DNA from: Branchiostoma floridae
Lineage: Eukaryota; Chordata; Leptocardii; Amphioxiformes; Branchiostomatidae
Direction: 5' to 3'
Length of the DNA: 64,000 nucleotides
NCBI RefSeq assembly: GCF_000003815.2
Contig: NC_049982.1
Span: 4,299,259 to 4,363,258, forward strand
Position numbers and translations under genes: made by a program. Within the stretch, counting starts at the first letter, position 1. Each line of letters opens with the position of its first letter. This document shows positions 18,520-62,269 of this stretch, piece after piece. The notes beneath the pieces are model-generated. The model saw only the letters and a list, made by a program, of their open reading frames with translations, did no database searches and was not told the DNA's origin.

Positions 18520-18868
18520 CTACAGTATTACTACGTGTGTTTTATCATTTGTATATGTCAACAAACGTACACATGATGTTTCACAATGTCAATCAAGCAA
18601 CTGTTTTAATTTTCCACAGTGAGGCAAATGTCTCAGTGTCAAAAAAAAGGAGGGGGGGGTCAGTCGCTAATAAAAGATAGTGGCTGCAATTCGAAACATC
18701 TGATTCTGTAGAGAATTTATTCAGCTGCTTGATTAATTTATATAACGTGGTGTTTTACATGTACCTGGATAATTAACCTTCATACTTATGCATGTGCCTA
18801 TACAATGTATGTATGAGACAAGTTGTTGTACACATGCACTAATGTTATGTTCTCTTTTGTCGTTCCAG

Positions 18869-26346: not shown

Positions 26347-26413
26347 ATGGGAGCTTTTTGGCTCTGCTGTGTCCTTGCGATCTCCTCCGCCTCGCTTGTA
26401 ACTGGTGATCAAA
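26347..26413 (+). CDS. Polycystin-like exon 1: signal peptide
   Basis: The exon encodes [20 protein letters not shown] plus DQ, a typical hydrophobic signal peptide, and ends in phase 1 before GTAAGT. The start context GAAAATGG has A at -3 and G at +4. All lectin, EGF and first FN3 exons that follow are also bounded by phase-1 introns, which is what allows them to be duplicated as cassettes. Confidence 0.85.
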
Positions 26414-29400
26414 GTAAGTAACATCGCCATTATAATGCCTCCATTTTTAGTCATTTTATTCACAGAGCGATCTTACCTGTTTAATTTTACCTTTCACTAT
26501 CATGACGACAATCGCTTTGTTCCAGCAATTCGACTTTAACTTAAGGTATTTCACCTGGCTAAAGTGGCATTTTGACCAGCCAATATTTTCCCATTGATGA
26601 ATTAAGAAAGAATGGAGCCGTAATGAATATTTTTGGGACCATATGAATGACGTCATCAAGTTTTATTGCCACTAATATTATTTTTTTCTGTTAGAAAATA
26701 CAGCACTTTGGTACATACCACTGCAATAAAACTACGTGTATGTTTTTCATGTGCATAATGATGAAAGCTACAGACTCACTTTTGCGCAAATTGATATCTT
26801 GTAATGATCTATAGTTATTAGAAAATAATATTTCTAATTAGATGAAAACAATCATTTTCTAATTACTACAGATCATTAGAAGATATCAATTTGCGCAAAC
26901 GATTGAAACAGGTACAACAAATTGGCACCCTAGATAGGCTAGGAAACTGAAACAACATTATGAAATAAATAGCATGAGCATGCGCGTCTACTTTAAACGT
27001 TTACATCTACAGTTGATCTATAATGGGCTAGTTACACCTAAATTGATTGAGTCACTGCGTGGTATTTGTTGAAAATTGTTATACTGTGTTTTGCTAATGG
27101 TGGTAGCACAATTTAGGCCATATTGGTTTGATTATATGGATCGATGACATCATCTGGGAACCCCAAAACTGATGCGAGCGTGCTAATAAAGAAAAGTTTG
27201 GCAAAAAATACTTTAATTATGAACTTTAAGTGATCAGGAAGGTTGAACAAATGACGTTAGTTTATACAGTTTACAGCATGGTCAAAAACTTCTTTTTCTT
27301 CTTTTTGGAAACGACCGAAAATTAATGTGCGCGTGGATGTCATCCATAAAATCAAATTGACATGGCGTAAAAGAAGCACACCAACCTATCAAATCGACGA
27401 GGTGAAAGCTTTGTACACTAATTTATCCATCTCGGTCGTTATTTTCAGTTGAAATTCAGCTAATGTGTACGTATGATTGCGTACAAACTTCCCCCCAACA
27501 TTTTCTCTCCAAACAGGCCGTCCACTACCACCAGGCTACGTTAGTTTTAACGGAAATTATTTCAAGCCATTTGCTGAGCGGAAGACGTACTTTGAGGCCA
27601 GGCAGACGTGTGCCGAGGATGGTGCCCTGTTGGCCATGCCGAAAGACAGAGCAACCAACTCTTTTATCACCAGCCTTGTACCAACCGGCGAACGTCTTTG
27701 GATTGGACTGACAGACATGGACGTGGAGAGGCAGTGGGCTTTTGCGGACGGCCAATCTCTCGATTCGTCGGTATATTCCAGCTGGCACCCCAGTCAACCA
27801 AACAATCATGCTAACGAAGACTGTGGCGCAATTTCGGATTCCGGACACTGGCATGACAGCACGTGTAATAGCCCCACTAGGAGATTCATCTGCCAGTTAC
27901 AACCAGGTATGCCTGATAAACATTCACTTTATGATTTCCATCATGATGTTTAGAATTTCTTAGACTATGGGTCCAATTCTGGTCTGTCTGAAATTTCATG
28001 TGTCCTCTAGTCAAACTTCTTTTGTTCTGCCCATGCATAGGGTGCCCATCAGCAGGCTACGTTAGCTTCAGTGGAAATTGCTTCAAGTTCTTTGCAGAGA
28101 TGATGACGTATTTTGACGCTAAACAGACGTGTGCAGATGACGGTGCCCTGTTGGCCATGCCGAAAGACAGCGCGACCAACTCTTTTATCACCAGCCTTGT
28201 ACCACCCGGCGGACGTATTTGGATTGGAATGACCGACATAAAAGTGGACAGACAGTGGGTATTTGCGAACGGCCAATCTCTGGAGTCATCGGTCTATTCC
28301 AACTGGGGCACAGATGAACCAAACAATCATGCTAACGAAGACTGTGGCGCACTTTCGGATTCCGGACACTGGTATGCCAGCACGTGTAATACGCAAATCA
28401 GGAGATTCATCTGCCAGTTTCAACCAGGTATGCCTTATAAATACTCACTTTATGATTCCAGTAATGATGTCTTGAATTTCTTAGACTATGGATCCGATTC
28501 TGGTCTGTCTGAGAATCCTTGTGTCCTGACGTCGAACTATTTTGTTCTCCCCATGCATAGGGTGTCCAACACCAAGCTACATAAGTTTCAGCGGAAATTG
28601 TTTCAAGCTATTTGCTGAGACGAAGACGTTCTTTGATGCCAGACAGACGTGTGCCGAGGATGGTGCCCTGTTGGCCATGCCGAAAGACAGCGCGACCAAC
28701 TCGTTTATCACCAGCCTTATACCAACCGGTGGAGGTCGGTGGGTTGGGCTGTCTGATATGGAAGTGGAAGGCCAGTGGGTATTTGCGGACGGCCAATCTC
28801 TGGAGTCATCGGTCTATTCCAGCTGGTATCCAGATCAACCAAACGATTATGGTGGCCTGGACTGTGTCAACCTTTTTGCTTCCGGGCGCTGGGAAGATGA
28901 TTCATGTGACGCCAACAAGACATTCATCTGCCAGTTCCAAACAGGTATGCCTCATAAATAAATGTGCTCACTATATGATTCCCATCATGTTGTCTTGAGT
29001 TTCGTAGACTCTGAGTCAGATTTCAGTGTAGCCAGAGGTCCGATCCAGCCTGTATCCAGGTCAACAGTGGGACATTGTAACATGCTTTGATGGAACATGC
29101 CACAATACCTAACAATTCATCTGTCATTTACATCACGTTGTGACAACTTGATGTTCACTACCTTCGCCAAGAAAGTTATGTCTGAGGGTGTTTGTGTTTG
29201 TTACCAGCGTAACCTGAAAAGCTGAGGCCCTGGATAGATCCTTATGATATTTGGGAGGTGAGTAAGGGTCGGCAAACCAAGGTTTAATAATGGGCCTCCT
29301 AGCGGCTTTCGGCGATACTGCAGCGGAACTTGGTCTGGATACCTCTTGTTCTGGACATGTTATGGTCGTGATTTTTAAGAGGTTGATATAACTTGGGACA

Positions 29401-32400
29401 GAGATTAAATGGTGTAGGTTTAGGCCCATATGAGGCTTTGTGTAACTGCAGGGGCATTATCATTAAGTGACGGGTTTGTTTGTAAGTTTCTGCTAGATTT
29501 CACCAAGTCAGAAAGTCCCATTCTCTACCCAGCGTGTCCAATAGCGGGCTACGTCAACGTCAAGGGAATCTGCTACCAGTTCTTTGCTCAGAAGAAGACG
29601 TACGGCCAGGCTGAAGAGACGTGTGCCGCAGGCGGGGCGCTGCTAGCCATGCCGAAAGACAGCACGACCAACTCTTTTATCACCAGCCTTGTACCACCCG
29701 GCGAACGTCTTTGGATTGGACTGACTGACATGGAAGTGGAAAAACAGTGGGCTTTTGCGGACGGCCAATCTCTGGAGTCATCGGGCTATTCCAGCTGGCA
29801 CCCAAGTCAACCAAACAATTATGCTGTCGAAGACTGTGGCGCAATTTCGGATTCCGGACACTGGCATGACAGCACGTGTAATAGCCCCATTAGGAGATTC
29901 ATCTGCCAGTTACAACCAGGTGTATAAGTGTACTCACTATATGGTTCTTAATTATCACGCTGTCTTGAATTTCGTAGACACTGTGTCCGATTTCAGTGTA
30001 GCCAGAGGTCCTTTCCTGCCTCACCAGGTATGACTAAAAATACTCACTTTCTGATTCACACCTTGAGTTTCATAAACCTTTTGCCAGAGAACCAAACTTC
30101 TGTGGTGCACAAGACTGTGATTTTATCTAAAATGCCGGAAAGTGGCATGCCTTATAATAAATGCTCAATGCATGATTCTTGTCACAATTAGGTAAGTTTG
30201 TTAGATTCTGTCAGACTTCAGTGTGTCCGAAATTCTTTTTCTTACCACGTCCAGCGTGCCCGATACCAGACTACGTGAGTTTCAAGGGAACCTGCTACAA
30301 GGACTTTACAGAGCGCGTGACGTACAGCCAGGCCGAACAGGCGTGTGCCGCGGACGGAGGAATGCTGGCCATGCCGAAAGACAGCGCGACCAACTCTTTT
30401 ATCGCCAGTCTGAAACACGGAGGGCGATGGCTTGGGCTGACTGCCGGGGACCAGAATGGCCAGTGGGTGTTCGCAGACGGCCAAACCCTGCATTCGACCG
30501 GCTATTCCAACTGGCGCCCGGGTGATCCAAGCAATAGCCTCGGAAATGAGTCCTGTGTCGAGTATCATGGGAACTTGTGGGCTAATTTGCCTTGCAACTG
30601 GGAATATGGATTTGTATGTCAGATAGACCAAGGTATGCGTTTGAATAATGCACGTTATGCTGAAATTTGTTTTATACGATCTATGACCATGTTCAAATTC
30701 GGTTGCTATGTTCACAATATCACTATATTCAGGTATTACTTGTGGTATCTAGGTACTGCATTAGAACGGCAGTTCTTTGTTAATTTTATTCTAAACATGC
30801 TGTGGTCATGATTTGGGCTCACACGAGAATCTCTCTCAACAGCTCTTTTGTTGGAGGTAGATTCACTGTGTCTAAGTTGCTCGATCCATTTTAGAAGACT
30901 GTATTTACCTTACGAATTGCAGACGAGTGTGCAAGAGACAGTGGAGGGTGTGACCAGATCTGCACCAACTTCCCTGAAAGTTATAGCTGTTCCTGCCTAC
31001 AGGGCTTCACGCTAATGACGGATGGTCATAGTTGTAAAGGTAGGCATGACACATCAAACAGCTTGATATGTAAGACGATTCCCGGTATTGTAAATACCCA
31101 CAGCAGCTCGGCAAACTTTTTTGGCAAAATTTCTGACCTTTGATGCTGAAAAGTTCTTCTGGAAAGTGTGGAGTGAATTGTAAGTATAGGAGTTCCGGAA
31201 AATAATGTTCGCCTTAATTGTGTAGATATTGACGAATGTGCAACAGACAATGGAGGTGTGTGAACATTACACATTCGAAGTGTAGAATGAATAGTAGGCT
31301 GAGTTGTGAGTATATGAGTTCCAAAAACTAATATTCGCCTTGATTTTGCAGATATTGACGAATGTGCAACAGACAGTGGAGGGTGTGACCAGATCTGTAC
31401 CAACGCAGTGGCAACTTACAGCTGTTCCTGTCGCCAGGGCTTCGCGTCAATGGGAGATGGCTATACTTGTGAAGGTAGGAAGCTTCAGCTTACAACTTAA
31501 TGCCATTCTTTTACACATGTAGATATACCAAAAGCCATTGCATATTACAATAAGTAGAGTTAAAGTATCAAGATCTTATTCTCAATCTGAAATTGCCAAC
31601 TGTAGGCTGCAACTTCAGCCATTTTCATAACCGCTACGCTCGAGAGCAAGGTCAGCGAGGGCATGTGGTCATGAGGATGGACATTGAAGGACATTTTGGA
31701 ACTGAAGAATGATATGAAGTCTCAACCTTATCTTTAAACAAGGTCGCTGGCGTTATTGTATGATGTCGGCATCTAACTTTGGAATGTGGCAAAAGACCAC
31801 CAGTTATGCTGACAATGGAATCTGTATTTTTCAGTGTGCGGCCACTGCCAGGGCGGCGACACGAACTGTGACCGGGTCTCGGGTGTATGCTCGGCGGGGT
31901 GTCAGGTCGGGTGGAAAACACAGCTTTGTCATGAAGGTACGGTGTGTCATCATCGTAAGCCGGGTTCACACGTGCGGATATATTTTAGTCCGTATGAGGT
32001 CCATGTGGAATTGTTAGCCTCCACAGGTTGCTCCTGACAGGTCGCTGGAAAAATGATAGAAATTGGACAAATATAGATGCATAACGTGCCAGAGGAGTTA
32101 GCTGTCCATGGTTTGCGACCAGCTAACGCCGCTGGCATGTTATCTGGCTATCAGCATCTGGCTATATTTGTCCAATTCCTACTATTTTACACATAGCACA
32201 AAAAGAAAGCACTTTGATTGAGATAAGTGGAAGATTTTCGGGAACATAAGGCCATGTTGATTTGATTATATGGATGACATCTTCTGAAAACTCCAAAACT
32301 GATGCGAGCGAGCGAATAAAAAAAAAGTTTGGCAAGAAAAAAAAGTTGCCTTCAGTATGAAATCAAAGTGGCCAGGAAGGTTGAATATAGGACCAAACAC

Positions 32401-35400
32401 ACATAGTATGGTATACCAACAGTTAGGTGTAGGGACCAGTACATCATACGGGTGCAAAACATTTTTTTTCTTCTTGGACCAGTCCGAAAAAAAAGACCTG
32501 AAAAAAAATCACAGGAACAGGTTTCGCCAATCACAAAATGGACACACTATGTCGGCAGGCATTTGGGGTCTTACCGGGGGCCAAGAAGACAACATATAGT
32601 CAATCGTGCCAAGTTTCTATAGTCAAAGGTACAGAGACAGTGAGTTAGTCTTTATTACATGGAGATGGAATTTTAAAATGCCTGTGGGGTCCCAATAATC
32701 CACCAAACAGATTCCTTTGTAGCAAAATTGACCAATTGCCATTGTTTTGAGTATTTCCAGTTCCAACTTGAATTGCAAGTTTCCACAGACAATCAGGTCC
32801 AGGTTCAAGTCCAGACCTGAAAATGATACTCTGGACCTTAATTTTCTGTACTGGTACCTCCCCCTATCAACAACATATATTTCTTTCTGTCCTTTTACAT
32901 CTTATTCTTGACTTTAGATTTATTTTGGCATTCTATGGCATTAGTTTTCTGTTTTCAGATATCTTTTTTTCCATCTACGGAATATTTGTGCTCATTTTAC
33001 AGCTGTTTTGCACAATTTATTGTGTGGTCGAAAACTTTTTTGTTTGTTGGAAATGGCCGAAAATTGGTGCGAGCGCGGATGTCATCCATATAATCAAATC
33101 AACATGGCCTAACTGTCAATGGGTCACCCATTCCATTTTATTAAAACCATGTCTTCCTGCAGCTGTGGACCCTCCTGTTAACCTGATCGTTACTGACGTC
33201 ACTGAAGAAGGGTTCAACGTCACGTGGTCTCCGTCCCTTGACCCTGACCGTCATGGTTACCATGTCGTGGTGTCGAAGCTGGACATGACGACAGCTGTCA
33301 ATCAAAGCACAGACAAGGCGTCATTCCCGGTGAGTGGACTGTCGCCAGAAACTGATTACGTCATCAAAGTGACATCACTGGTCTTGTCGGGCGGATGGAG
33401 GTCACAGAGCGAGGAGGCAGTCATACTCGCAGCCACAGGTACTGAGTGATTAAATGCTCATTATCTATTTATCTAATTAGATATGATCTCAGTGCACCAG
33501 TAAATTAGTATATAGAAGCTTCGCTAACACAAAGATTTGGGGGCCTCGGTTCGCGATTTTCAGCGTTGGCTGGGTTCTCTTGTGCCGTGAAAGGGAGTTT
33601 GCCGCGGAAGGCAGTTTGCTGTGGAAGGAAGTTTGCCGTGATAGCGAGTCTTTGCCCCCGTCCGAAGACTGCGCCAATTCGGCGACACGAGAGACCAATT
33701 AAAAACACTTGGACGCAATCTGCATGGACGTGTGAAATCCCTACGGTCCGTTGGGCGCGTTAATAAACCACACGCATCTTCTCCGGGCAGCAAGTTGCCA
33801 TTCCTCCTGGCGCAAACTTTCATGGATTCTTTGCCAATCAATGTTGTACTGATCCTTGTCGAGTAATTCCTGATCTTGGTTCAAGCCCTGATTAAACCCG
33901 GACCGAAGAGCAGGAAAATAAGTATCGGAATCGGGTTTGACGTCATCTAAAATTAAATTCGTTCATCACCTACTAATTTTTGACGGTACATTTCCAGGAG
34001 CTCGCTCCTCCACAGACCTGCAGTTCGTTGAAGTGACCGACTTCATGGTCGCATTCACCTGGTCACCCCCTGACGCGGCCGTGACCGGGTACCGAGTCAT
34101 GTACGGACAGGAGGATGCGACGGAGCAGCTCAGCCCCTCTCCCGGACCAGGGAGTAGATCTGCAGTCATCGTAGGACTACGCTCGGAGACGATGTACAAG
34201 GTGTGCAAATATAGAAATAACATCCTCTTTTCCTGACGTTTAAAAGTGCCCTAAAACCCACGATAAGTGACATGAGCCCTCTATAGTAACCGCATATGTC
34301 CTGTCTCATTTCATCTTAGTTCATGACACTAATTATTTGATTATCCATATGTATTGTTATCACATTCTACGTATTACTTAACTTTGTCATTTATCTATTA
34401 TAATCAATCTCATCAATTTAGTTAAATATAAAATGAGGTCTGGGGGACCTAGTATAAGCTATATACTCGTGTACCTTTTCATCCCTACATCCGTTTTATA
34501 TAATGTTTATCTTGTTATGTATTTTTTTTCTTGTTGTGCAAATTAATAGGTGGAGATCACTACAATCGGAGTTTACCGAGAAAGTTCGCCACTAGTCGGC
34601 CAGATCAAGACTGGTGAGTGTAACTCTTTTTTTTTACTTAATGATCAACACGTAACAAGACCTGAAGGTCATTTCAAGGTGTGCCCGAAAGACGCCCCAA
34701 GGTTACAGGTTACATTGCAAATGTAACAGCATCTCTTAGCTCAATGACAGAAACATCATGATTGAGACCAGCTCAGTTGCTCACTAAGAGTGAGGACTAA
34801 CTGACCAGTTGGGTCACACAGTTATCGAGTTAAGCATCAACTTGGCAATGCATATTCTTGTCCTTTTTGTTTCCTCTGTGTCGCCATTGACGAGTTAATT
34901 GGGTACGCAATACGGTTGCATATTCTCCCCTGATGGAGATGTGTCACTAGGAGCTGTATCCTATTCACCTTGACCTGTACTTAACTTGTTAGAAAGCAAA
35001 AACGTACAATGAAGGTCTTCATTCATTCATTCATTCATTCATTCATTCATTCATTCATTCATTCATTCATTCATTCATTCATTCATTCATTCATTCATTC
35101 ATTCTCTCCTGATGATGTTTCCCTGCCAGCCGCTGCTCCCACCACACCCAACCCTGCTGCCGGACAGACGAGTCGGATGACCACCACTCTGTCCATGAGC
35201 ACGTCGTCCTCATCCTCCACCACTCCAGCGAAGACTACACGAGACCAAGGGGCGTCTGCCGACGGTATGTTATCACTGAAAGACAAGGAAACATTGCTTG
35301 ATGACTGCCCAGATCTAGTGATGTGACATACTTAGTACACTCTTCCCTTGAGACCGCCCCCCCCCCCCCCACATTCTTCCCAGCAAGCTCTTCCCTATGC

Positions 35401-38400
35401 TGTCAATATGTCGTTCCGGTCAATTTTTCAGAACACCTACGCATGTGGTGATAAACATTATATAGATAACGAACTCCCTTGATGCAAGCTGCTTACAGTA
35501 GACAAGGCTTATTCTATTATACGACGTTTGATGTTCTCTAATAACTGATGGCATTTGTTTAAATCTCCAAGAAGGTGTCGGAAGGCAAATCGTGACTTTT
35601 TTCTGTTCTGTTCTTATTTTCGACGGGAACCGGGAACCCGTGAAACGTTATCATAATAAAACTATAAAAATTCCTTTTTTTGCATCTGCTTGTAGACTAG
35701 GAAATTCTTATATAACAAATTGATTTGACACATGAAACATTTTTTTCTTTCAGATGAAGAAATCGACAGTGTTGATTTGGGTGGCATGGACACTGAAGGC
35801 GTTGACAGCGGTTCCTATGACTACTCTGATTCCCAAGACAGTGGTTCCTATGGTGACTCTGATGCTGAACGACCAGTTCCCACAACGGAGTCAAACAAAG
35901 ATGGTGAGTGAATTACTCTTGATGAACACGTAGTTCCTCTTGCTCAAGCCTATTTGAAAGAATAGTAGACACGTGGAGTTAGGGACAAGTGTTTATCATT
36001 ATTTGATGAGACAATCGAATGTGTGTATAGAGGAATATTACTATTCGTTCACCTTTGTCGTCTCTTATTTCAATATGGCAACTTTCTTTTAAAATCATCA
36101 ATGGTAACCAAAATATGCATGACAATTTTATCAAAAGAAAAAAATAAAGCGCAATACTGATTTTGACAACAACAATTCTCTTTTTGCTGTACAGCAACAA
36201 CTGGGAAAAGCAGCAAATCACCTGGTGACGTCAGGACAACGTCATATCAGGTTTTCGGTTATTACAGATACTTAACTCCGCACTACGGGGGACGCTTAAG
36301 AAATAGAATATCTCTAAAGTCTTTCCAAACCTCGGTTAGATTATGACCAAGAAAGAACATTAAGATTTACATAAAGTCATTTTAGAAAATTCCAAAAGCA
36401 AAAGTGCGAAAAAGAGCTTAATACAGTTTCTCCGTGAGCGCGTGCAATATGAATTGAAATAAAATGAGTATGAAATGACTTAGGGGATACCGATGACGCT
36501 CACGCAGCACTTGAAACTGTTTTATAATATATATAATTGAATTAGGTCTTAATTGTTTATTAAGTCAGCTATAAGGCTCATGCCTTGCCGTCTGATGCAC
36601 TATAAACATTGTCTTTGTTTTTCCTCTTTTCAAACTATTCAAACTTCATAAACAGCACGTTTTTTTATAATGGTTTATTTGGCAAAACTTTACATGTCAT
36701 ACGGTTCGCAGCCTTGCGGCTGAATTGGAGTAATGACAACACATTCAGCACAGTTAATACAATATAAACGATAAAATTCCTGGCACATTAAGATAACAAG
36801 CAAGGTTTAAAATATCTATAAATGAAGTACTCGATTAAAAACTTTTATTGCACTTTCAAGTAATCGTGATATTGCACTTAGATTACTTCTATTAGTAAGC
36901 AATTACCTACATGGTATCGGTTGTGCGTTTTGTACTTTAATCTATTTGTGGTTCTAATGGAAAGGCTGCTGGAGATGCTGTGGAGATGATGGAGACGACA
37001 ACAGCTGCTGAGGAAAATGCAGAGGTAAGTACCCATCGGAGGTAAGTTCTGAAGCTCTTCCATTACAGCTATATGGAGTGACAATCTGATCTACTTGACT
37101 GTTGATAAGTGTAGCAATGGATAGGCTTGTGTTGAGGAGTGGAGAAACTATGTCATCATTTACGGGGCTCATATAAAATATAAAAATACGAAAAGAACAA
37201 GAAGGATAAAATGTGCACCTGCATCTGCTGGGGCTTTACACGTGGCATGCAGTTCTTGTCCCTGTGGGACTTAGTGCTCCAGTAGACGAGAGGGTGGAGA
37301 AGGAAGTGCACACCCCACCTTCACCCTAAAAAGTCACGTGCAGGCCAGGCAGACGGGGCGCCTAACCCACCCTGTCTGCCTACCATTGTCTTCCGTGCAA
37401 ACTTTGTATCTGTGTGATGGAAGTGGAAATTTTAAAGCCGACATTTATTGCGACCAGGCAAAAACTCGGATCCTCAATCAGAAAGTGGATATGCCTGTGA
37501 CTGTCCTGTTTCTTACACCTTTGTGAACAAAAGGGAAGTGTGAGGTTTTTTTTGCTTCATGCATTAAACAAGAAACTAAGACATTAGAGACAGATATGAT
37601 TAAGCCGTGATGTTTACATGGTTTCGAAAAATTGATGAAGTCTCGCGAAAGTTGATGAAGTCTCGTGAAAGTTGATGAAGTCTCGTGAAAGTTGATGAAG
37701 TCTCGCGAAAGTTGATGAAGTCTCGCGAAAGTTGATGAAGTCTCGCGAAAGTTGATGAAGTCTCGCGGAAGTTTATGAAGTCTCGCGAGTTTTCTTGCTT
37801 CCACAGGACAAGGCGCTGGACCTTCTCGAGTCCATTACAACCACGCTGGACGAGGTGGACATGTCCGACCCGGCAACTCTCGAGTCTGTGGGAGGATGTG
37901 AGTACAAATATACCCAGTCTGATGTCATCATGCGTATATATATGTATAGTTTTCTCGGTGCAAGGCCATTATTTGACCACTTCTGGGCACTGAAGTACTC
38001 TCACTGTGGCAGCATCTCTTCTTCTTAAGTCAGAAACATCGAGCTTCAGCATTCTCGCCTAACTGCCCCAATAGGCATTTACCCGGAATGGTTTGATCCA
38101 CTCACACCGGGAAGGTCTCCTACTCTTTTCGATAAGTGCGGCGGGTTTTTTACGTGCCAGGGGTGTGGCTCTCCTCAAACACGGGACGTCCTATCCGAGG
38201 GACGGCCCTAGCTGAAGCTAGACTGCCTCTTTTTGTCCGTCTGCCAAGAGATATAATGCCGTTTAATGACGTGCGGTAGAAGCGTAAAGGGCCCGTGACA
38301 TCTAGAAAGTAACGTTAGTAACTTTACATCTGGATACACGCACATACACATTTTAGTATCATACCTCTCTAAATTGCAACGCTTTTTAGATCATTCCTTT

Positions 38401-41400
38401 TATCATAGTTTTCTAGAACAAAAACACACAAAGAGCATGAAAAAATGAGTAATCAAAGGCACGTGCGAGTAGTGAAAAACACACACATAAAACCTGGAAA
38501 ACAGCAAATATGTATTCATATATCTTAACGCTACAAACAAAACAAAGACATAACCATTCAAACTATGTGATAGATAAGGCTGTTTGCAGAATACACAACC
38601 ACAGCATAACTCAGTATGGTGGTATGCACTGTATGTCTAATCTCCAAGCAGATCCTACGGTAGCATAAGATAGTATCAAAAGCTGGCAAAGGAGTGAAGC
38701 CGGCCTAGGAGTGTGTATGCTACCGGTGCCCAACTGACTCCCTCTGGCTGGCTATACTTCTTGGCCAGCTTTGGTACTATCTTATGGCACCGTAGGATCT
38801 GCTTGGAGACTATGGTATGACTATATCTTAGTATAAGAACATGATATCTGTTTGCAAGAGGTGTTTCTGGCTTTTGTCAGAGTCCCTGTTTCCCTTTCCA
38901 GCTCTGCTGGAGTCCGTAGGTACCCTGCTCGAGGACCCAGAGACAGATGCAGAAGAAGCTGCCGATGATGGTGACCCCAAGGCTGACCCCGCTGAAGACG
39001 AGAGTCTCTCTCCAGAGGAACGCCTGCAAAAGACTGGACAACAGAAACAGGAGGAGCAAGCTAAGGTAGAACGAGTCAATACACTCGGTTTTACTCAAGA
39101 ACATTCTATTTATATCATTTGAGATGCAAGTACCACACGTACATGACAGATAAGCATCCTGTTGTTATTGACGTGGCTTGTATTTGCTGACAAATATGTC
39201 CTCTAGTAGTTTTTCCCTTTGTTTTAAAGTTAGTTTTTTGTCTGCCCGGTGACGAGGAGAACTAAGGCTAACGTCACATTTCCAAATCGGGGCCCGGTCG
39301 GGCTGTTTGTGGAAACGGATAAAAATGTATAGTTACGTAAAAATATACGCAATCAATGCCCACGACTATTCTCTTTACGTCTTGTATAGTTTGGTGCCAA
39401 GTTTTATGTTATACTGCTGCTGTCCGGTCCACGGTTTGGAAATCCAACGTAGGCCTAAGTCGAATAAAAACCGGAAGTGGGTCCAGCGTCACTTACGATT
39501 ATGGGGATAACTATTTGAGGAACAAGAGTTGGCTATACTAGGTAATTACTGCCATGGCTGTATCAGGTATATCTAATCTCCTCACAGAGACGAAAGCTTG
39601 TCCAAGAAAGTCGCCGGGTCCTAGAGAAGATGGAAGATGCCATTGTCCAAACCCTGAAGCCTGGAGCGCCCGCCGTCACCCTGTCAAGAGGCGGGGTCAC
39701 GCTGAGCGCTCAGAAGGTTTCAGGCTCCGAATTCGGAAGCCAGGAGGTGCGGACAGGTGATGGAGGCTTCCAGCTTCCATCTCAAGCGGCGCTTTTCTCG
39801 GATTATACACCACACAGCGTCACTATTAAAGTAGGTTAAGTTCTTCCTTTAGCTATAGGCATAGATGATTATCTTCTCTTTATGGGATCAATATCAAGTC
39901 ACCTTAATATTTGCTGATAACGTAAGTCAACAGAGGAATTTCCAGAACTCATGTATAACAGTCAATTTAGTTCGCATAACCTCCTGTCATCGTTCTGGAT
40001 GTGTCACTGATGTGTTTTTTCTGTATATCTTTTGTGATGGTTGTGACAATCTTGTCTTTCAGCGTGTTTATCATGCAAATAAATATTAGTAACTGAAATT
40101 ACGATAATCATCAGTATCACCATAGTCCTGTGATCAAACCTCTAAAAGACGAGCTAAATGTTATGCATTTTTGACGTTGTAGTTGCTGTACTGCAGTTGT
40201 AGTTTGACAACAGGAGCTTATGGACTTAAAAGTAATCTCGTCTTGACTTTGTTTTCTCGTGAACCATCTGAGAATTGTTTGTCTTCACCTATTCCACATA
40301 TCAATTCACAGTTTTAGTTTAAAAGCTGATAAGTCCTGATATTCCTCCAATCACAGACGAAAGTTTAAGATGGCAGATGCTGCCTGATGGACCCTCTGGC
40401 CGTTTCCAAATCATATCCAGATACAGTAGAGGCCGCTTAATTGCACATCCAATTTGCAAGCGTATTTCGTGCAATTATCCGTATGGTGCAATAATGCGAA
40501 GTTATCCAGCTGAACTGCACCGGTTTAGGATTTGGGGATTCCGTGCAATTAACAGAAGTTTGCGGTAATCCGCTGTGCAATTAACTGACTTGTATTGTAC
40601 TTAAGTCTTCAGTAACTATTATTTGGCGTACTTACCTAAGACGTTGTTGTCTCTTTAAATAGCTGAAGCAGTTTGAAGAAAACCCGTTCACCTGGGGGAC
40701 CGGAGAACGCCAGGTCAGCTCCACAGTCATGGAACTTTCGCTCCAACAGAACAACATTAACGAAGCTCTGGCCTTCAACAACCTCACCGAGGACTTCGTC
40801 ATCACCATTCCCGGAAGTTCCAAAAACAAGATGGCGACAAAGAACATAACCTTCTATTCTCGCGGAAACAAAACCGCAGTGTATCATTTCTATAATCTCA
40901 CCGACATGGCAGAGGGATTCATGGTCACAATAATACCGTTAAACACGAGTGTGGTGTACGGCGTGTCGGGCAGGTACGACGACCGTCCTGACGACCAGAA
41001 CTACAGCGTGTCCATGGAGACGTACGTTCTTCCCGAGCAGTGTGCCTTGATGAAAACCCTGAGTGGCGATGAAGACGACGTGGACAAGACACAGGCAACG
41101 ATGTTCATCAAGGGGCAGAGGGACCCAGCGCAATACTACGTCAAAGTTCGAATTTTAGGTCAGCGTTCTTAAGCCATTTTGATGCTTGACCTATGCCACT
41201 ATTATAATAGGTAACGCGAGCTTTGCAAGCGTGGTAATTTATAGGCCTTTTGTCGTAAATGAAAAGAGAATATAAAAACTTCTATCAATATTTGTAAAAC
41301 TATCAAAAAAGACATCGCACAAGTTAGTTTTGTGATCCATACTTAAACAATAGTTTATTTCTACATTCTGATCTTTTATTGTGTAACTGCATGATGCTGT

Positions 41401-43214
41401 TTACGTTAATTTCAACACTTCATACTTTTACCATTTAGCCCTACGTCACACTTCCAAACCGCGGCCCGGCCGGGCAGCTTTCGTGAACCTTAAGCTTCCG
41501 GCAGGACCCGTTTTTCCAAATGAGACCTAAGCCTTACTGGTACCATTCCCGTTTGTTTCAGGTCCGGCGACCGAGTGCGGCGATGAGGAAGAGACTGACT
41601 TGTGGGATTCAGAGGAAGGTGGCTTTTTCGCCTACGAGATCCAGTGGGCCCGTTTGCGCTGTGTTTATTGGAACGAGACTCAGGAAACCTGGCTGACTGA
41701 TGGCTGCGCGGTATTTTATTTTATTCACATTTCCTTAAGGCGTATTAGACAAAAAGCACATCTGATTACATTGGCATTCTGCTCGAGGTAAACATATAAT
41801 AACAAATAACAGTCAAAATAAACAAAGGACAGGGTTGGACAAGTCCACTAGCCTTATTGTCCAGGGCAAGTGAAAGTGCTGATCGGGCAAGTGCATGACC
41901 TGATTTTATATTGAGTGAGATTTTGATATACTTGTTACTTTTTACAGTCATGACATCAAGCAATGGTCAACATTGAAAAATAGAGGCATAATTCCATTGA
42001 TGGAAGTGAAAATACATCTTAAAGTGACATCTGAATTTTGGGCAAATGAAAAATTGGTTCGGGCAAGTAAATTGCACCGGTCGTCATACAAATAAACGAT
42101 AACTGGAAATAAATCTAGCAAAATGTGATTACGACATGTCTGTCACCGCTGTTCACAGATCAGCAACAAATCCACCATCAACAGCACCATCTGCCACTGC
42201 AACCATCTCACCGCGTTCGGAAGTGACGTCATCACGCCGCCCAGCAAGGCCAACTTCGGGGAGCTGAAGTTCAGCGATGTGGGGGACAGCGGCGCAGTCG
42301 TGACGGCTGTCTGCGTGGAGTTCTGGATCTTCGTGCTCACAATGGTCGCCATCAAAGAGATGGCGCGATGGAAGAAGAAGGTAGGTTAACGTCGATGGTT
42401 AGACATTCGCGGGTAGCAAGGTGATTTCCTTCTTCTTTTTACTTCTTCTTTTTTTTTACGTTAAAGAATTGAATTTTGAGGCCACAACTGCTCTACAGCG
42501 TTGGAGTGAGATTTACATTTGAGTGACTTTTGCATACAGAGTTTGTGTATTGACATGTTCAAGTTTTTCTAGTTAGCTGTACTTGTATTGTTCTGCCAGA
42601 TCATTTTAGTGACGCTGAAGAAGAGTGATGGATGTCACTCGAAACGTCCAGAAGTAAATTCCCGTTTTTTATCCAGTTGTAGGGATTGAATTGAATTTGA
42701 ATATTTAGCGTGAGGTACGTTAACCATTGATACATGCAAAGATAATAATAGTGGTCATTCAATTGATACTTCTTGAGTATTTAGTGATCTCTGGTGATTT
42801 TTTTTTAAATTCTCGGCCCCGCTGAAGAAACATGATTCGTATATAGTAGAGTAGATTCATCCCTCAAGCTAGCGACATCTTGTACACTGCAGTCGTCCCC
42901 CAGAAAGACATTTGGAGCCGCATAGTTCAAGTTTTGAACTTTTATTCAGCCTGTCGGCCAAGCTAGTTTCACTGTGTACAGCTTCTTCGGTGGCTCGAGG
43001 CTAAATGACACAAGTACAAGGAAGTTTGCGCTTACCTTGTTGAGCATTCGTGCTTGTTTATGAAAACTTCTGTTTGATTACTCAGCTAAATGAGCTGGAC
43101 GACCTGCAGCACGGTGACCCGGCCCACCTCTACATCCGGGCAGGTGCCGCTGAGAACGCTGGAAAGGAGTCCAGCATTGCCTTCAAGCTGTTCGGGGATG
43201 CAACGACCACTTAG
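26347..43214 (+). CDS. Truncated polycystin-1-like lectin receptor, 23 exons
   Basis: Full model: 26347-26413, 27517-27906, 28041-28427, 28561-28944, 29533-29919, 30255-30632, 30923-31039, 31352-31474, 31835-31936, 33163-33438, 33998-34200, 34550-34613, 35130-35264, 35754-35903, 36195-36250, 36965-37024, 37807-37897, 38902-39065, 39588-39830, 40663-41158, 41562-41710, 42159-42380, 43086-43214. All junctions are GT-AG and all phases agree, giving 1,590 residues. Order: signal peptide, five CTLDs, two EGF and one EGF-like, two FN3, Thr/Ser/acidic stalk, GAIN/REJ-like region, GPS, one span, broken PLAT. Polycystin-1 relatives normally continue through PLAT and ten more spans; here a stop ends the frame 51 residues after the span. 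I expect a cell-surface or ciliary lectin receptor. Introns 34201-34549, 35265-35753 and 36251-36964 hold nothing I recognise. AATAAA occurs at 43794 and 44931. Confidence 0.85.
26780..26899. repeat. Palindromic element in intron 1
   Basis: TTTGCGCAAATTGATATCTT is mirrored by AGATATCAATTTGCGCAAA with imperfect inner arms; 120 bp in all, AT-rich, a MITE-like hairpin. Confidence 0.7.
27117..27368. mobile_element. MITE family A, copy 2 (intron 1)
   Basis: GATTATATGGATCGATGACATC on the left and GATGTCATCCATAAAATC plus GACATGGC on the right are the inverted ends of the family seen at 8.4 and 32.2 kb. This copy is shorter, with internal loss. Confidence 0.75.
27517..27906 (+). CDS. Polycystin-like exon 2: C-type lectin domain 1
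   Basis: Residues 23-152. The domain shows the WIGL motif, six cysteines in CTLD spacing and ends FICQLQPG. At the calcium/sugar site it has QPN (not EPN) and WHD in place of WND, so calcium-dependent sugar binding is plausible but specificity is unclear. Intron after it is 134 bp and closely resembles the next intron, showing tandem duplication of exon plus intron. Confidence 0.9.
28041..28427 (+). CDS. Polycystin-like exon 3: C-type lectin domain 2
   Basis: Residues 153-281. This domain carries EPN, the motif of mannose-type CTLDs, but its WND position reads WYA, so one calcium ligand set is probably impaired. It contains WIGM where other copies have WIGL. It shares a long near-identical stretch ([17 protein letters not shown]) with its neighbours. 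Confidence 0.9.
28561..28944 (+). CDS. Polycystin-like exon 4: C-type lectin domain 3
   Basis: Residues 282-409. QPN at the sugar site and WED in place of WND; WVGL replaces WIGL. The intron before it (133 bp) is a close copy of the preceding intron. Confidence 0.9.
29040..29140 (+). pseudogene. Relic CTLD exon between domains 3 and 4
   Basis: ACAATTCATCTGTCATTTACA matches the exon end that encodes RRFICQLQ in intact copies, with frame breaks. The upstream GTATCCAGGTCAACAGTGGG matches the block before QPN. There is no usable exon. Confidence 0.55.
29150..29440. repeat. Dispersed repeat in intron, ACCTTCGCCAAG end
   Basis: CTACCTTCGCCAAGAAAGTTA, then AGCTGAGGCCC, GGGCCTCCTAGCGGC and ACTGCAGCGGAACTTG. 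These blocks recur in reverse order and complement inside 48.95-49.85 kb. Confidence 0.55.
29533..29919 (+). CDS. Polycystin-like exon 5: C-type lectin domain 4
   Basis: Residues 410-538. QPN and WHD at the binding loop, almost identical to domain 1 in its second half ([15 protein letters not shown]), while the first half differs ([20 protein letters not shown]). The patchwork suggests gene conversion between cassettes. Confidence 0.9.
30060..30165 (+). pseudogene. Relic CTLD exon between domains 4 and 5
   Basis: From 30089 one frame reads [13 protein letters not shown], then a stop, then NAGKWHA. This aligns with the EPN...DC...GHWHDS segment of the intact domains. The preceding half is lost and the stop makes it non-functional. 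Confidence 0.6.
30255..30632 (+). CDS. Polycystin-like exon 6: C-type lectin domain 5
   Basis: Residues 539-664, the most diverged copy. WLGL is present; the sugar site reads DPS and the WND position reads WAN, so calcium-dependent sugar binding is doubtful. It ends FVCQIDQG. Confidence 0.88.
30923..31039 (+). CDS. Polycystin-like exon 7: calcium-type EGF domain 1
   Basis: Residues 665-703: [16 protein letters not shown], then YSCSCLQGF and SCKG. Six cysteines in EGF spacing. A single EGF exon with phase-1 borders. Confidence 0.9.
31226..31262 (+). pseudogene. Truncated EGF exon copy
   Basis: After a TTGTGTAG acceptor the sequence reads [12 protein letters not shown] and then a stop. It and its flanks are repeated at 31314-31390, where the complete EGF exon lies. 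It is a partial tandem duplicate of the following exon. Confidence 0.75.
31352..31474 (+). CDS. Polycystin-like exon 8: calcium-type EGF domain 2
   Basis: Residues 704-744: [18 protein letters not shown], then YSCSCRQGF and YTCEG. The DIDEC start is the calcium-binding type. Confidence 0.9.
31835..31936 (+). CDS. Polycystin-like exon 9: EGF-like cysteine-rich module
   Basis: Residues 745-778: [18 protein letters not shown], then [11 protein letters not shown]. The spacing is that of MEGF/scavenger-type EGF repeats. Confidence 0.8.
32051..32187. repeat. Palindromic element in intron 9
   Basis: AATGATAGAAATTGGACAAA with TATAG is mirrored by CTATATTTGTCCAATTCCTA. A second inner palindrome (GTTAGCTG / CAGCTAAC) completes a hairpin of about 137 bp. 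Confidence 0.7.
32248..33112. mobile_element. MITE family A, copy 3, interrupted
   Basis: AAGGCCATGTTGATTTGATT at the left and ATATAATCAAATCAACATGG at the right are inverted ends. Internal blocks (AGTGGCCAGGAAGGTT, GGTATACC, TGTGGTCGAAAACTT) align with copy 1 at 8.4 kb. The middle, about 32.46-32.86 kb, has no counterpart in copy 1 and is probably a later insertion. The right end lies only 50 bp upstream of the FN3 exon. Confidence 0.8.
33163..33438 (+). CDS. Polycystin-like exon 10: fibronectin type III domain 1
   Basis: Residues 779-870. [19 protein letters not shown], then a GYHVVVS strand, [13 protein letters not shown] and a closing TG are the FN3 hallmarks. One whole domain in one phase-1 exon. 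Confidence 0.9.
33540..33850. repeat. Dispersed GGGAGTTTGCCG repeat in intron 10
   Basis: GATTTTCAGCGTTGGCTGGG, AAAGGGAGTTTGCCG and several GTTTGCCG variants match the palindromic element at 53.77-53.95 kb. Confidence 0.55.
33998..34613 (+). CDS. Polycystin-like exons 11-12: fibronectin type III domain 2
   Basis: Exons 33998-34200 and 34550-34613, residues 871-959, joined at a phase-0 intron. [34 protein letters not shown] and then [20 protein letters not shown] form one FN3 domain split inside strand F. The 349-bp intron between them holds nothing I recognise. Confidence 0.88.
34670..34830 (-). repeat. SINE fragment (family M), reverse orientation
   Basis: AACATCATGATTGAGACCAG and AGTGAGGACTAACTGACC are the complement of the 3' part of the SINE at 63.2-63.4 kb. 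Confidence 0.65.
35021..35104. repeat. (ATTC)21 microsatellite next to a splice acceptor
   Basis: Perfect tetranucleotide run of 84 bp that ends 25 bp before the first base of exon 13 (35130). It therefore occupies the region where the branch point and pyrimidine tract normally lie. Confidence 0.97.
35130..35264 (+). CDS. Polycystin-like exon 13: Thr/Ser-rich stalk
   Basis: Residues 960-1004, rich in Ala, Pro, Thr and Ser ([12 protein letters not shown], then [15 protein letters not shown]). Probably an O-glycosylated, extended stalk. Confidence 0.8.
35754..35903 (+). CDS. Polycystin-like exon 14: acidic Ser/Gly/Tyr stalk
   Basis: Residues 1005-1054. Contains a repeated [23 protein letters not shown] pattern, strongly acidic. 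No known domain. Confidence 0.78.
36195..37024 (+). CDS. Polycystin-like exons 15-16: short linker exons
   Basis: Exons 36195-36250 (ends phase 0 at CAG before GTTTTC) and 36965-37024 (phase 0 to 0; [20 protein letters not shown]). An alternative donor GTGACG at 36225 would end exon 15 in phase 1, but then exon 16 would meet a stop, so I chose the longer form. These two exons are the least certain part of the model. Confidence 0.6.
37626..37790. repeat. Minisatellite, 20-bp unit, eight copies, at a splice acceptor
   Basis: GTTGATGAAGTCTCGCGAAA is repeated about eight times with C/T changes at one CpG, and ends 16 bp before exon 17. Confidence 0.93.
37807..39065 (+). CDS. Polycystin-like exons 17-18: helical start of the GAIN/REJ-like region
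   Basis: Exons 37807-37897 and 38902-39065, residues 1094-1178, phase 1 between them. They contain repeated [13 protein letters not shown] and [12 protein letters not shown] helices, as at the start of polycystin-1-type GAIN regions, followed by an acidic linker and [17 protein letters not shown]. Confidence 0.8.
38060..38225 (-). repeat. SINE fragment (family M), reverse orientation
   Basis: The complement carries CCCTCGGATAGGACGT, GGAGAGCCACACCC, CACGTAAAAAACCCGCC and GGATCAAACCATTCCGG, in the same order as the SINE at 63.08-63.21 kb. Confidence 0.75.
38641..38809. mobile_element. Inverted-repeat element (family H), 169 bp
   Basis: TCTCCAAGCAGATCCTACGG is mirrored by CCGTAGGATCTGCTTGGAGA; arms continue through CATAAGATAGTA and AGCTGGC. 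The ends share CTCCAAGCAG with the family D element at 16.2 kb. Confidence 0.85.
39262..39461. mobile_element. MITE family B, copy 3 (intron 18)
   Basis: CTAAGGCTAACGTCACATTTCC with GGGGCCCGGTCGGGC at the left and CGGTTTGGAAATCCAACG with GGCCTAAG at the right are diverged family B ends. Confidence 0.7.
39588..39830 (+). CDS. Polycystin-like exon 19: GAIN region
   Basis: Residues 1179-1259, phase 0 both sides. The helix [18 protein letters not shown] leads into strands [17 protein letters not shown] and [10 protein letters not shown], the pattern seen in polycystin-1 proteins before the GPS. Confidence 0.82.
39831..40662. other. Intron 19 with a possible pogo/Tigger-like MITE remnant
   Basis: ACAGTAGAGGCCGCTTAATT at about 40422 resembles pogo/Tigger-type termini (CAGT... 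CGCTTA). The other end near 40580 (CCGCTGTGCAATTAACTG) is only a weak inverse. The rest of the intron shows nothing. Confidence 0.35.
40663..41158 (+). CDS. Polycystin-like exon 20: GAIN core
   Basis: Residues 1260-1425 (end shared with the next exon). [19 protein letters not shown], then [14 protein letters not shown] and later [19 protein letters not shown] match the polycystin-1/PKD1L strands around NLTEPIVIxIP. Several N-glycosylation sequons. The longest exon of the gene. Confidence 0.88.
41441..41536. mobile_element. MITE family B, copy 4, internally deleted
   Basis: TAGCCCTACGTCACACTTCC with GCGGCCCGGCCGGGC on the left and CCAAATGAGACCTAAGCC on the right; only about 95 bp remain. The right end is 26 bp before exon 21. 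Confidence 0.7.
41562..42380 (+). CDS. Polycystin-like exons 21-22: GPS and transmembrane span
   Basis: Exons 41562-41710 and 42159-42380, residues up to 1548. The GPS reads [17 protein letters not shown], then [15 protein letters not shown]; the expected self-cleavage point is between Leu and Thr of CNHLT. About 30 residues on is a single span, [19 protein letters not shown], followed by the positive stop-transfer run ARWKKK. This corresponds to the first span of polycystin-1. Cys, Trp and HLT residues needed for GPS folding and cleavage are all present. Confidence 0.92.
41835..42085. repeat. Dispersed GGACAAGT / GGGCAAGT repeat (copy 1)
   Basis: GGTTGGACAAGTCCACTAGCC, TTGTCCAGGGCAAGTGAAA and GGGCAAGTAAATTGC are repeated in part at 56.2-56.3 kb. 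Confidence 0.5.
42555..42706. repeat. Half copy of element family E (intron 22)
   Basis: GTGACGCTGAAGAAGAGTGA, TGGATGTCACTCGAAACG and TTTTTTATCCAGTTGTAG match the right arm of the 22.7-23.7 kb element. Confidence 0.75.
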
Positions 43215-43239
43215 AGTGGCCCACGTGCAAAAGAAGAAG
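43086..43239 (+). CDS. Polycystin-like exon 23: broken start of PLAT, stop at 43212
   Basis: In frame the exon encodes [20 protein letters not shown] and [10 protein letters not shown] and stops at TAG 43212-43214 (CDS end 43214). This is the first strand pair of the PLAT domain that follows span 1 in polycystin-1. From the stop to the donor at 43240 the next frame reads [12 protein letters not shown], the normal continuation of PLAT, so one small frame shift has ended the protein. The original exon borders survive. Confidence 0.8.
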
Positions 43240-43339
43240 GTCGGTACTTAAATTGTCATCTCTGGATGATTGCTTGACGATGTCATGTTAAATGTTCACT
43301 CTAGATCTGAAGTACACCAAAGAAACCCTAAAATAGTCT

Positions 43340-43545
43340 CTATCAGGCTGACCTGCCTGGTGAGATAGTAATAGGGGACTTACTTTTACAAAGTTAGGAA
43401 TAAAAGCCTAATAGGAATCAATTGGCCTGGGAGTGAACTGACCAGCCGGATAGCTGGATAGACTGCAAAAGAATGGCTGAAATATTAAGACCTATATTTG
43501 TCCCTACTTGGCCAATTTCTTCATCCAGCTGACACGGCTGCTTGG
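43340..43545. repeat. Dispersed repeat with GTTAGGAATAAAAG and GCTGGATAGACTG
   Basis: AAGTTAGGAATAAAAGCC, TTGGCCTGGGAGTGAACTGA and AGCTGGATAGACTG recur at about 62.66-62.72 kb and 63.77-63.86 kb. Confidence 0.6.
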
Positions 43546-44102
43546 AGACTATCCTATAACACGCCGTATCTCTCCTTTTTTGCCTTGCCGCGCCAGCAGC
43601 AAGGCCTTATGCCAGCTTTCTTCCATGGATCCATGGACCAATGGACGGACCTTTTAACCCAGCCCTTCCAAAGGCCCGTTTTTAATGGGTTTTCTTTCCT
43701 TGCCGAGTTTCATAGCTTAGTTAGACAATGGTACATTCCAGGCGAGTATCAAAACTCTCTTCTAGACGCATGTTACTGTATGTGGTCCAGCGTAATAAAT
43801 CTACGCTTTAACTCACCATGTTTATATAAAGATATATCACAAATTGCATCAGAAGGAACTTATTTTGTAATGAAAAATAATGCATATTCATTGTGGGTCA
43901 AAAAGTTTTACAAAACCTGTTTAATGTGCCAATAATTCATCTGACATAAATTATGATAATGAGGTAAATTTCCAATATCCCCTAGTACACTCGGGGATTT
44001 TTGCTGCATTTCCTACTGAAGTTGCTAGGTGTCGCTCTCAGCAGTTCAGTCATAAAATACGCGGCAAGGCACAGCTTTTCTTAAAAGATTTCTTGTTTGT
44101 AG

Positions 44103-44157
44103 ATTTTCACACGAGGCAGTCAAGTGACGCTGAAGTTCAGCACATCAGAACAGCTGG
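44103..44157 (+). pseudogene. Relic second PLAT exon of the polycystin-like gene
   Basis: After a TTTGTAG acceptor the frame reads IFTRGSQVTLKFSTSEQLG and reaches a GTGATG donor. It continues [12 protein letters not shown] of the previous exon, as PLAT domains do (KxxFxRGSxxxFxLxTxxxLG). It can only be read if the frame shift in exon 23 is bypassed. I find no further PLAT or membrane exons before 46.5 kb. Confidence 0.72.
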
Positions 44158-44404
44158 GTGATGAGGCGAGCTGCTGCCGATTATGCATGACAACCGTGTT
44201 TGTAAACTTTTGTCGATATTTGCTTAAACTTTTCTCTAAGCAAATTTTGTTTTATAACTACTTGAATGTCCTGAAGTCGCGCGCTCGGCTAGAAAGATTA
44301 TGCAGGACCTGATGCGTGGATGCGTGATCTTGCATGTATACGTATCACCTGCAGTTTTGAACCTATGGCCAGAAGATATGATGTTACAGTTAGGTCACTG
44401 CAGG

Positions 44405-46513: not shown

Positions 46514-48168
46514 CTATGAGGGGTAGTATCTCTTTTTCAGGGTCCTGTATTTCCTAAGCATGTACAGAGCCTCCAGCTCCTTAATGACGTAGTCTCCTCT
46601 CGCTATGAGCATCTTGATGACCTCCGGGTCTGTCTCATCCTTGTGTTTGACAAAAGCAGCCTTGCATCTCTGTCTGAAGTAGTCCTGGCCCTTGGGGTAC
46701 TCTCTACCCAGGAACATCAGCTGTGAATGGGGGAAATGAGACAAAATGCTTTTCTAGAAGGTAAGGGTCACATATTAAATCTTGACGTTGTTTCTTTTAA
46801 ATGAAAAATGGTGAAAAAGATTATCAAACAGTCACCTGTTACTGGCTATTACAAATTGCTGACAATACAAAATAGAATTTGACACACGCGCAAGCACACA
46901 CACACACACACTCGTAAGGAAGGATACTGTAAATGCAGAAATGTTTGCAAAGGTTAAGTGTTTGTCATTTTTCAGGTGACGTCGACTGTGATCTCGATGA
47001 CTGCAGGCTGTTATGACTTAGCAACTTATCAATTGTAAAAGATTAGAGTCCATTCCAAGACACCATGCGGATGTTTGTTGCCATTGTTTAGAATTGATTA
47101 TAAAGTTTTGTAATTATATGTCTAGGACATTTGATACTTCAGAAATATTTTTAACACTGTTTCAACTTTATAAATATTTCCCTGGTCCTGTAAAACTTTG
47201 GAAATATTCATGGTGTGGAATTGGATACTTCTAATGGTTTCAAAATAATGATAACAGCATTCTACCATTATTTACCATTTTCTACCATTTTTTGTAAATG
47301 GTTCGGTGGGCTGGGAAGATAGCAATTCACACATTCTTGCAAAGTATGGTTGGGTGCCATGCAACAATGGCCCACCACAAAGGATCCACCAGTGCCCAGC
47401 TGTGAAATCTAAAAATATACAGATGCAACAATAGGGCTTACTTATATGGGGGCAATAAACTAATTTTACCATTTGGCCAGGTTTACCATTTTTTGTAAAT
47501 ATTTGTAAATGTGAAATAATCACAGAGAGGTTTCACAATTATTCTAAATAAAGATATTTTTGTACAGTTACTTTCAAAATGTTTCTAAAATATTCAAAGA
47601 AATTCAAATAAATGAGTATTTTCTTAGTCAATTTTTTGAAAATAATTTAATTCTTGTGGCTCAGATATTCTTTTATTCACAATAATTCAGACTAATTATA
47701 AATATCGCCTAAAAACCCTCATGGTGTCTTGGAATGGACTCTATGACTTAGCAATTGTAAAAGATTATGACTTAGCAATTGTAAAACTAAAAGATTATGA
47801 CTTAGCAATTGTAAAAGATTATGACTTAGGAATTGTAAAAGAAGCCCAGCAACAGTACAGTAACCATGCTAATGCCAGTAGCCACAGCCATGGCTGCCCA
47901 ACTAGACTGTGGCTATAACAAAGGGCTAGCCCTGATGACAGAGACAAAGACACATAATACAAATAGACTTTTACATGTACAGAATGACAATCAATAACAA
48001 CATTCAAAGTACAAAAAATACTGTATATAAATGGTCTAGAGTAGCATCTACAGTGTTTATTAAGGTATCAACAGCTAGTCCACGTGAATTTTTAGACCAA
48101 GGTTCAATGGTAGCTGCCCTTACATTTTTGTACAGTTGTCTGACTTGATATCTCAGGTTGACTGCCAT
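46514..48168 (-). CDS. ETFRF1: ETFRF1 (LYRM5), LYR-family mitochondrial protein, two coding exons
   Basis: Coding exons 48168-48124 and 46720-46514 on the minus strand join at a phase-0 intron (donor AAT before GTAAGG, acceptor CCCATTCACAG) to give an 83-residue protein. It begins [15 protein letters not shown] and continues [15 protein letters not shown], then [20 protein letters not shown]. This matches human ETFRF1/LYRM5 along its whole length, including the LYK form of the LYR motif and the YPKG and LEALYxLRKYR blocks. The family member in human binds the electron-transfer flavoprotein in the mitochondrial matrix and displaces its FAD. A good acceptor (GTTTTGTCAG, first exon base 48197) lies just upstream of the ATG, so a 5' UTR exon probably exists further upstream, perhaps near 50.65 kb beside DNAI7. 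The 1.4-kb intron contains a TIR element. Confidence 0.93.
47046..47741. mobile_element. TIR element in the ETFRF1 intron, TA target duplication
   Basis: Perfect 22-bp inverted ends (GAGTCCATTCCAAGACACCA plus TG) bound 696 bp flanked by TA on both sides, as for Tc1/mariner-type elements. The inside has ACCATTTTTTGTAAAT repeats and a minus-strand frame of 83 codons with no recognised domain. Confidence 0.75.
47742..47840. repeat. Tandem repeat, 24-30 bp unit
   Basis: TATGACTTAGCAATTGTAAA is repeated four times with small indels; one related copy lies left of the TIR element at about 47014-47042. Confidence 0.8.
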
Positions 48169-61680: not shown

Positions 61681-62269
61681 CCTCAGAGTCCGGCAAGAAA
61701 TCTCTGCCCTGCGCTAGCCAGCGCAGAGCGGAAATGTGTTGGGAGTAGGTAACAATTATTTGTGATTTCAGTAAGCGATGACGTAAATGCAAATGAAGGC
61801 TGGAGTAGGAATCTTATATTTGAAAGGATGTCCCTTGTTGTCAAGCAAGTTGTTGCTAACGTCGCACAGTCTTTTTTAACCCTTTCATGTTCCATCAGGA
61901 TTGCCTAGGCCTCCCTACCAGGTTCTATTCAGCCAAGTATTTCCTATCTATTAAAGAGGTCATGTAATATATATGTAAATGTCCTGAACATTTTTTGTTC
62001 CTGCCAATAAAAATTTCCCAAATGCCTAACTTTTGAAGACATCATACACTGATTGAATTGGACTAAACTGACAGCTTTCAACTAATACTTGTCTTATAGT
62101 AATAGTTCCGTACCTTTGAATTTACAGCAATCGGGCGATCCGACCCGTGGTTGGGCTGACACCTTGGGCGATACGGAATACACCGTGTTGTATTCTATAT
62201 GTATATATATTTTACTAAGTATGAATTTTAAGTTGAATGCATCCAAAAACATTAATGCACAGCAGAAAA
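61681..62269. other. GPCR upstream flank
   Basis: No exon recognised. The promoter of the GPCR should lie here, but no TATA box or other element is convincing. Confidence 0.35.

Follow-up and report, generated by a model that had tools for sequence, protein, structure and literature searches.

A lancelet gene of polycystin-1 descent appears to have lost its channel half and may persist as a single-span, five-lectin receptor

The stretch of DNA analysed here (the window) comprises 64,000 nucleotides of the Branchiostoma floridae genome (contig C4, 4299259-4363258; the assembly searched is of 513.4 Mb in 431 contigs), and a plus-strand gene within it is best explained as a reduced lectin receptor with a single membrane span, a reading to which we give a probability of roughly 0.55. 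Sequence comparison supports the assignment of this gene by descent to the polycystin-1 (PKD1) family, as its GAIN, GPS and PLAT exons match those of a channel-bearing subfamily in the same genome. It likewise supports descent from a polycystin-1-type channel gene whose channel half was lost at this locus. The features are as follows, in positions of the window.

26347-26413, plus strand: exon 1, signal peptide (exon model; second hydropathy peak)
27517-30632, plus strand: exons 2-6, five C-type lectin domains (CTLDs) (Pfam Lectin_C 3.5e-100, five stretches), one per exon and all of phase 1-1, at 27517-27906, 28041-28427, 28561-28944, 29533-29919 and 30255-30632
30923-31936, plus strand: exons 7-9, two EGF domains and a third Cys-rich EGF-like module (Pfam; exon 9 module 79-82% identical in the C5 paralog)
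33163-34613, plus strand: exons 10-12, two FN3 domains (Pfam fn3 5.8e-21; 67-69% identical in the C5 paralog)
35130-37024, plus strand: exons 13-16, Ser/Thr-rich and acidic stalk (phase fit; weak or no paralog match)
37807-41710, plus strand: exons 17-21, stalk and GAIN domain (exon 20 is 60-68% identical to 24 nearly whole paralog copies)
42159-42380, plus strand: exon 22, end of the GPS (CHCNHL/T) and the single membrane span (GPS 2e-10; hydropathy)
43086-43239, plus strand: exon 23, first PLAT exon, with a 5-nt gap against the paralogs at about 43210/43211 and TAG at 43212-43214
44103-44198, plus strand: remnant of the second PLAT exon, with a 2-nt insertion at 44166-44167 and clear homology to about 44198
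46514-46753, minus strand: frame of the next downstream gene, an LYR-family protein (Complex1_LYR 2.5e-9), bordering the region where channel exons would be expected

A scripted exon build from the sequence produced 23 exons with continuous phases throughout, as the original prediction had described, between 26347 and 43214 and with a GT donor and an AG acceptor at all 22 introns; the encoded protein has 1,583 residues, seven fewer than the 1,590 given there. The exons of the model were selected so that the frame stays open, and those of the stalk (13-16) were picked partly by phase fit and have the least certain boundaries of all: the paralog on contig C5 matched exon 13 (E 0.017) and exon 14 (E 0.29) only weakly, and exons 15 and 16 found no match in it. 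A Pfam scan of the 1,583 residues detected Lectin_C in five stretches, fn3 in two, EGF-type domains and a GPS. The strongest hydropathy peak falls at residues 1514-1532 (2.41) and the second is the signal peptide (1.84). The layout first read from the letters, namely signal peptide, five CTLDs, EGF domains, two FN3 domains, stalk, GAIN/GPS and one span, was recovered by the exon model, Pfam and hydropathy. The frame indeed ends in the first PLAT exon, at the TAG of 43212-43214 within exon 23, leaving a tail of 51 residues after the span.

A GPS (PF01825, 2e-10) lies ahead of the first span, as in the PKD1 family, and the motif CHCNHLT, earlier called an intact self-cleavage motif, is present in the predicted protein with HL/T as the candidate cleavage site. 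The REJ domain, which is usual but not universal in this family, gave no Pfam match at E<=1 in the 1,583 residues. One span is predicted rather than the 11 that accompany a polycystin channel, and the PLAT domain after it is not intact, with a 5-nt deletion, a 2-nt insertion and a remainder that was not found. A PDB search with the C-terminal part returned nine sequences, all of adhesion GPCRs and all through the GPS region; as for the seven-span domain of that group, Pfam found no 7tm match after the GPS and hydropathy indicated only one peak there.

The same C-terminal part matched 112 places in the genome, its own exons counted. Apart from its own, the GAIN exon had close copies at 27 places, of which 24 matched over nearly the whole length at 60-68% identity and three over part of it at 54-74%, when matches at 26-29% on C2, C11 and C4 were excluded as distant; the subfamily found therefore consists of 28 dispersed GAIN copies, including the window gene. 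One member, L037 (C13:18701400-18709300), was read from the GAIN domain to the channel, in pieces chosen by eye from open frames, and encodes PLAT (8.9e-9), Polycystin_dom (2.5e-28) and PKD_channel (6.8e-15). With the PLAT-to-loop part of L037 as query, 26 close copies of the main post-PLAT transmembrane exon were recovered at 63-96% identity, that of L037 among them; seven further matches at 35-38% on C2 and C11 were excluded. When paired by strand and distance, 26 of the 28 GAIN copies have this exon 2.5-23 kb downstream, which uses up all 26 exon copies and leaves no orphan. The two unpaired GAIN copies are the window gene and a copy on C274, a contig of 33,555 bases that ends 2.4 kb away from it. 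Among the matches listed, PKD_channel occurs downstream of at least 17 of the 27 other GAIN copies and of none for the window gene. The polycystin-1-type repertoire of this genome is very large, with at least 84 PLAT and at least 158 PKD_channel matches counted exon by exon, and the PLAT matches need not all be polycystins.

Several lesions mark the PLAT region. Compared with L037, 5 nt are absent from exon 23 at about 43210/43211, and this deletion puts the stop in frame; the end of the exon also differs by three nucleotides with the frame kept. The second PLAT exon has 2 extra nucleotides at 44166-44167. Both PLAT exons are open in all six paralogs read (L037 and L061-L065; 6 of 27), and none of the six carries either the deletion or the insertion, which are found in the window copy alone. 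In these six the second PLAT exon continues through HDNSGEG..ASW, the second half of PLAT, to its end; the window sequence diverges past about 44198 and has no clear homology beyond, and if a short match further on is real, some 64 nt would have been deleted inside this exon. The claim that a PLAT domain once followed, drawn from the exon at 44103, is therefore borne out by homology to the second PLAT exon of the paralogs. The end assigned to that exon, 44157, does not hold: since the exon runs on past it in six of six paralogs, the GT there is a chance one. The PLAT fragment of the window had no Pfam match at E<=1, nor at E<=10 when joined to the piece after the insertion, because the fragment is too short: the same stretch of an intact paralog scores 0.15, and a whole paralog PLAT 2.5e-10. 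A local repeat scan of the breakpoint region showed CA-rich runs and two short duplicated stretches. AATAAA occurs at 43399, perhaps by chance.

The original prediction had found no channel spans before the next gene and proposed a search for PLAT and channel exons within 100 kb. Ten pieces of L037 were accordingly compared by tblastn with the window and 100 kb on each side (264 kb, holding 3,097 N, all in the flanks and none in the window). They matched exons 22, 23 and 24 (the last being the second PLAT exon) at 8e-23, 3e-8 and 7e-6, the next best E value being 0.08, and no further PLAT or channel piece was detected in the 264 kb.

Whether the remaining half is alive or dead bears on the most serious rival, a pseudogene of the whole gene in an early phase, in which the gene died with the loss of PLAT and channel and decay has yet to reach exons 1-22. 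This is unlikely, though it keeps an appreciable share of the probability: the loss appears recent, the remnant holds three lesions with the channel absent, a partial PLAT tail may not fold, and large duplicated families would be expected to generate such copies. Against it, the 4,623 nt of exons 1-22 are free of stops, frameshifts and broken splice sites, whereas the PLAT remnant of about 249 nt contains three lesions. If lesions were evenly spread, all three would fall in the remnant by chance with a probability of 1.3e-4, or of about 0.003 if the insertion and the large loss were one event; this test was framed after the fact and draws on two or three events. For the GAIN exon, dN/dS between the window gene and 21 of its 27 paralogs is 0.21-0.32 (164 codons), and the median is 0.316 for paralog pairs with dS above 0.1 (out of 210 pairs). 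The comparison with the C5 paralog, which covers 298 codons of exons 9-11, 17 and 19, gives 0.29. These values average a long shared history, and the window GAIN forms the longest terminal branch of the GAIN tree. The PLAT remnant itself gives 0.35 against L037 (bootstrap 95% 0.17-0.72, 73 codons), which places the loss late on the lineage; the open upstream frame is for that reason weak evidence and may largely reflect a lag in decay. The stop lies 25 nt upstream of the exon 23 donor, so that, by the 50-nt rule for mRNA decay, decay of the transcript need not be triggered. Because exons 1-22 are constrained and free of lesions, the reduced receptor is favoured over a pseudogene of the whole gene.

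A misassembly, or a null allele in a species whose normal gene keeps the channel, is a good deal less probable again. The analysis rests on one assembly, lancelets are highly polymorphic and runs of N occur in the flanks, and the channel sequence may be missing from the assembly altogether; but the window has no N, the PLAT remnant has several lesions and all 26 close post-PLAT transmembrane exons already have a GAIN partner. No spare half thus remains among the matches found, and a misjoin is unsupported. No second copy of the window gene is seen either, since no other GAIN-exon match exceeds 74% identity (68% for those nearly whole). An assembly slip in its simple form, one of the explanations first offered, is not supported, given the same lesions, the lack of N in the window and the lack of an unpaired post-PLAT exon copy; a slip of a single base is ruled out by the several lesions together with the absence of an orphan among the close post-PLAT exons. 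Very improbable is a further 3' exon to which exon 22 would splice, for example that at 44103 read in frame to give a new tail: with exon 22 ending in phase 0, skipping of exon 23 would lead into the frame IFTRG, which the AG at 44103 opens and which stays open to 44309 (a join through exon 23 would be out of phase, its 154 nt exceeding the required length by one base or falling two short of it), but no paralog read has such a tail and the channel would still be absent from it.

On the favoured reading of a reduced receptor, the window gene would be a dispersed member of the lancelet polycystin-1-type subfamily from which the remainder of PLAT and every channel exon disappeared late in its history, the lateness being suggested by the dN/dS values. 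The remaining frame most likely still yields a single-span protein. Outside the cell the lectin array may bind glycans, the GAIN domain would cleave itself at HL/T while keeping both parts together, and the 51-residue tail would remain inside, where a tail with only part of PLAT may misfold. Such a protein could serve adhesion or recognition, or pair with its full-length relatives or act as a decoy for them, and presumably would not be an ion channel. The fuller proposal, a working, self-cleaving receptor with one span and five lectin domains whose lineage shed PLAT and channel recently and independently of sea urchin REJ1, is held tentatively, at somewhat less than even odds.

The lectin array looks specific to the window gene, judging from a direct comparison with 2 of the 27 paralogs and from the distribution of lectin matches. 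By tblastn with the window exons, no lectin domain was detected in the 14.9 kb up to the GAIN exon of the C5 paralog (486 N upstream) or in the 9.9 kb upstream of FN3 in the C9 paralog, and the third EGF-like module (exon 9) was found in the paralogs read at 77-82% identity. A genome search with a query in which CTLD4 was the sole lectin domain gave a best match outside the window of 58% identity; among the lectin matches listed (74 of 2,282 candidates scored), none is nearer than 400 kb to any subfamily GAIN copy except that of the window gene. The N-terminus of the C5 paralog (L059 1-9000 with L058) consists of repeated Cys-containing modules, two of which had no Pfam match at E<=1, and this paralog also has a duplicated EGF-FN3-FN3 unit. 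Together with the differing N-terminus of the C9 paralog, these modules suggest that N-termini have been shuffled within the subfamily. CTLD1, 2 and 4 (27517-29919) arose by tandem duplication fairly recently (dS 0.24-0.38), and at what we take to be the sugar site they carry the unusual motifs QPN/EPN and WHD/WYA. CTLD2-5 keep the extra N-terminal pair of cysteines and CTLD1 lacks both, as expected of a folded domain. Pairs among CTLD1-4 give dN/dS of 0.32-0.76, which indicates mild constraint at most.

Elsewhere in the window, an unbroken minus-strand frame at 60217-61713 encodes a rhodopsin-type receptor of 499 residues (7tm_1 9.5e-26), and a retroelement reverse transcriptase frame lies at 17277-18527 on the same strand (RVT_1 3.5e-28). 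The LYR-family neighbour is presumably ETFRF1/LYRM5-like. By eye, a tandem repeat of about 20 nt (gttgatgaagtctcgcgaaa) occupies 37640-37790 immediately upstream of exon 17, and an (ATTC)n run occupies 35015-35105 just upstream of exon 13.

Titles and the openings of abstracts, with thin coverage of subscription journals, yielded no paper on the lancelet subfamily. Its members, L037 included, share the GAIN, GPS, span and PLAT exons of the window gene (the L037 GAIN exon is 68% identical), but L037 continues with an intact PLAT, Polycystin_dom and PKD_channel, and no lectin domain was detected in the N-termini of the C5 and C9 paralogs, the two that were read. One genome thus holds a reduced copy with a readable broken PLAT beside 26 paralogs that keep the next transmembrane exon, so that the path from a channel to a one-span receptor could be traced in it. 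If the protein is made, it would offer a test of whether the lectin and GAIN domains of a polycystin work once the channel is gone, which bears on polycystin-1 signalling in general. Adhesion GPCRs such as ADGRG6 resemble the window protein in the GPS region (1.1e-4, PDB chain 6v55_A), but they have a seven-span domain, which was not found here. Human PKD1 pseudogenes are duplicated polycystin-1 genes without the 3' part; they are recent segmental copies, whereas no terminal branch of the GAIN tree is longer than that of the window copy. The nearest published case is sea urchin SpREJ1, described as a PKD1-family protein of 1,450 residues with C-type lectin, EGF and GPS domains. SpREJ1, 8 and 9 have one predicted span, as against 11 in SpREJ3-6 and all five human PKD1 proteins (PMC1934368). 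SpREJ1 thus shares C-type lectin, EGF, GPS, a single predicted span and similar length with the window protein, and the suggestion of a new architecture stands only in part, a one-span lectin-bearing PKD1 relative having been published (PMC1934368). What is distinctive is the array of five lectin domains, the two FN3 domains, the visible broken PLAT remnant and the lack of a detectable REJ domain, which SpREJ1 has. With no REJ, a different set of domains and a broken PLAT still visible, the reduction in the lancelet looks independent of that in the sea urchin and recent.
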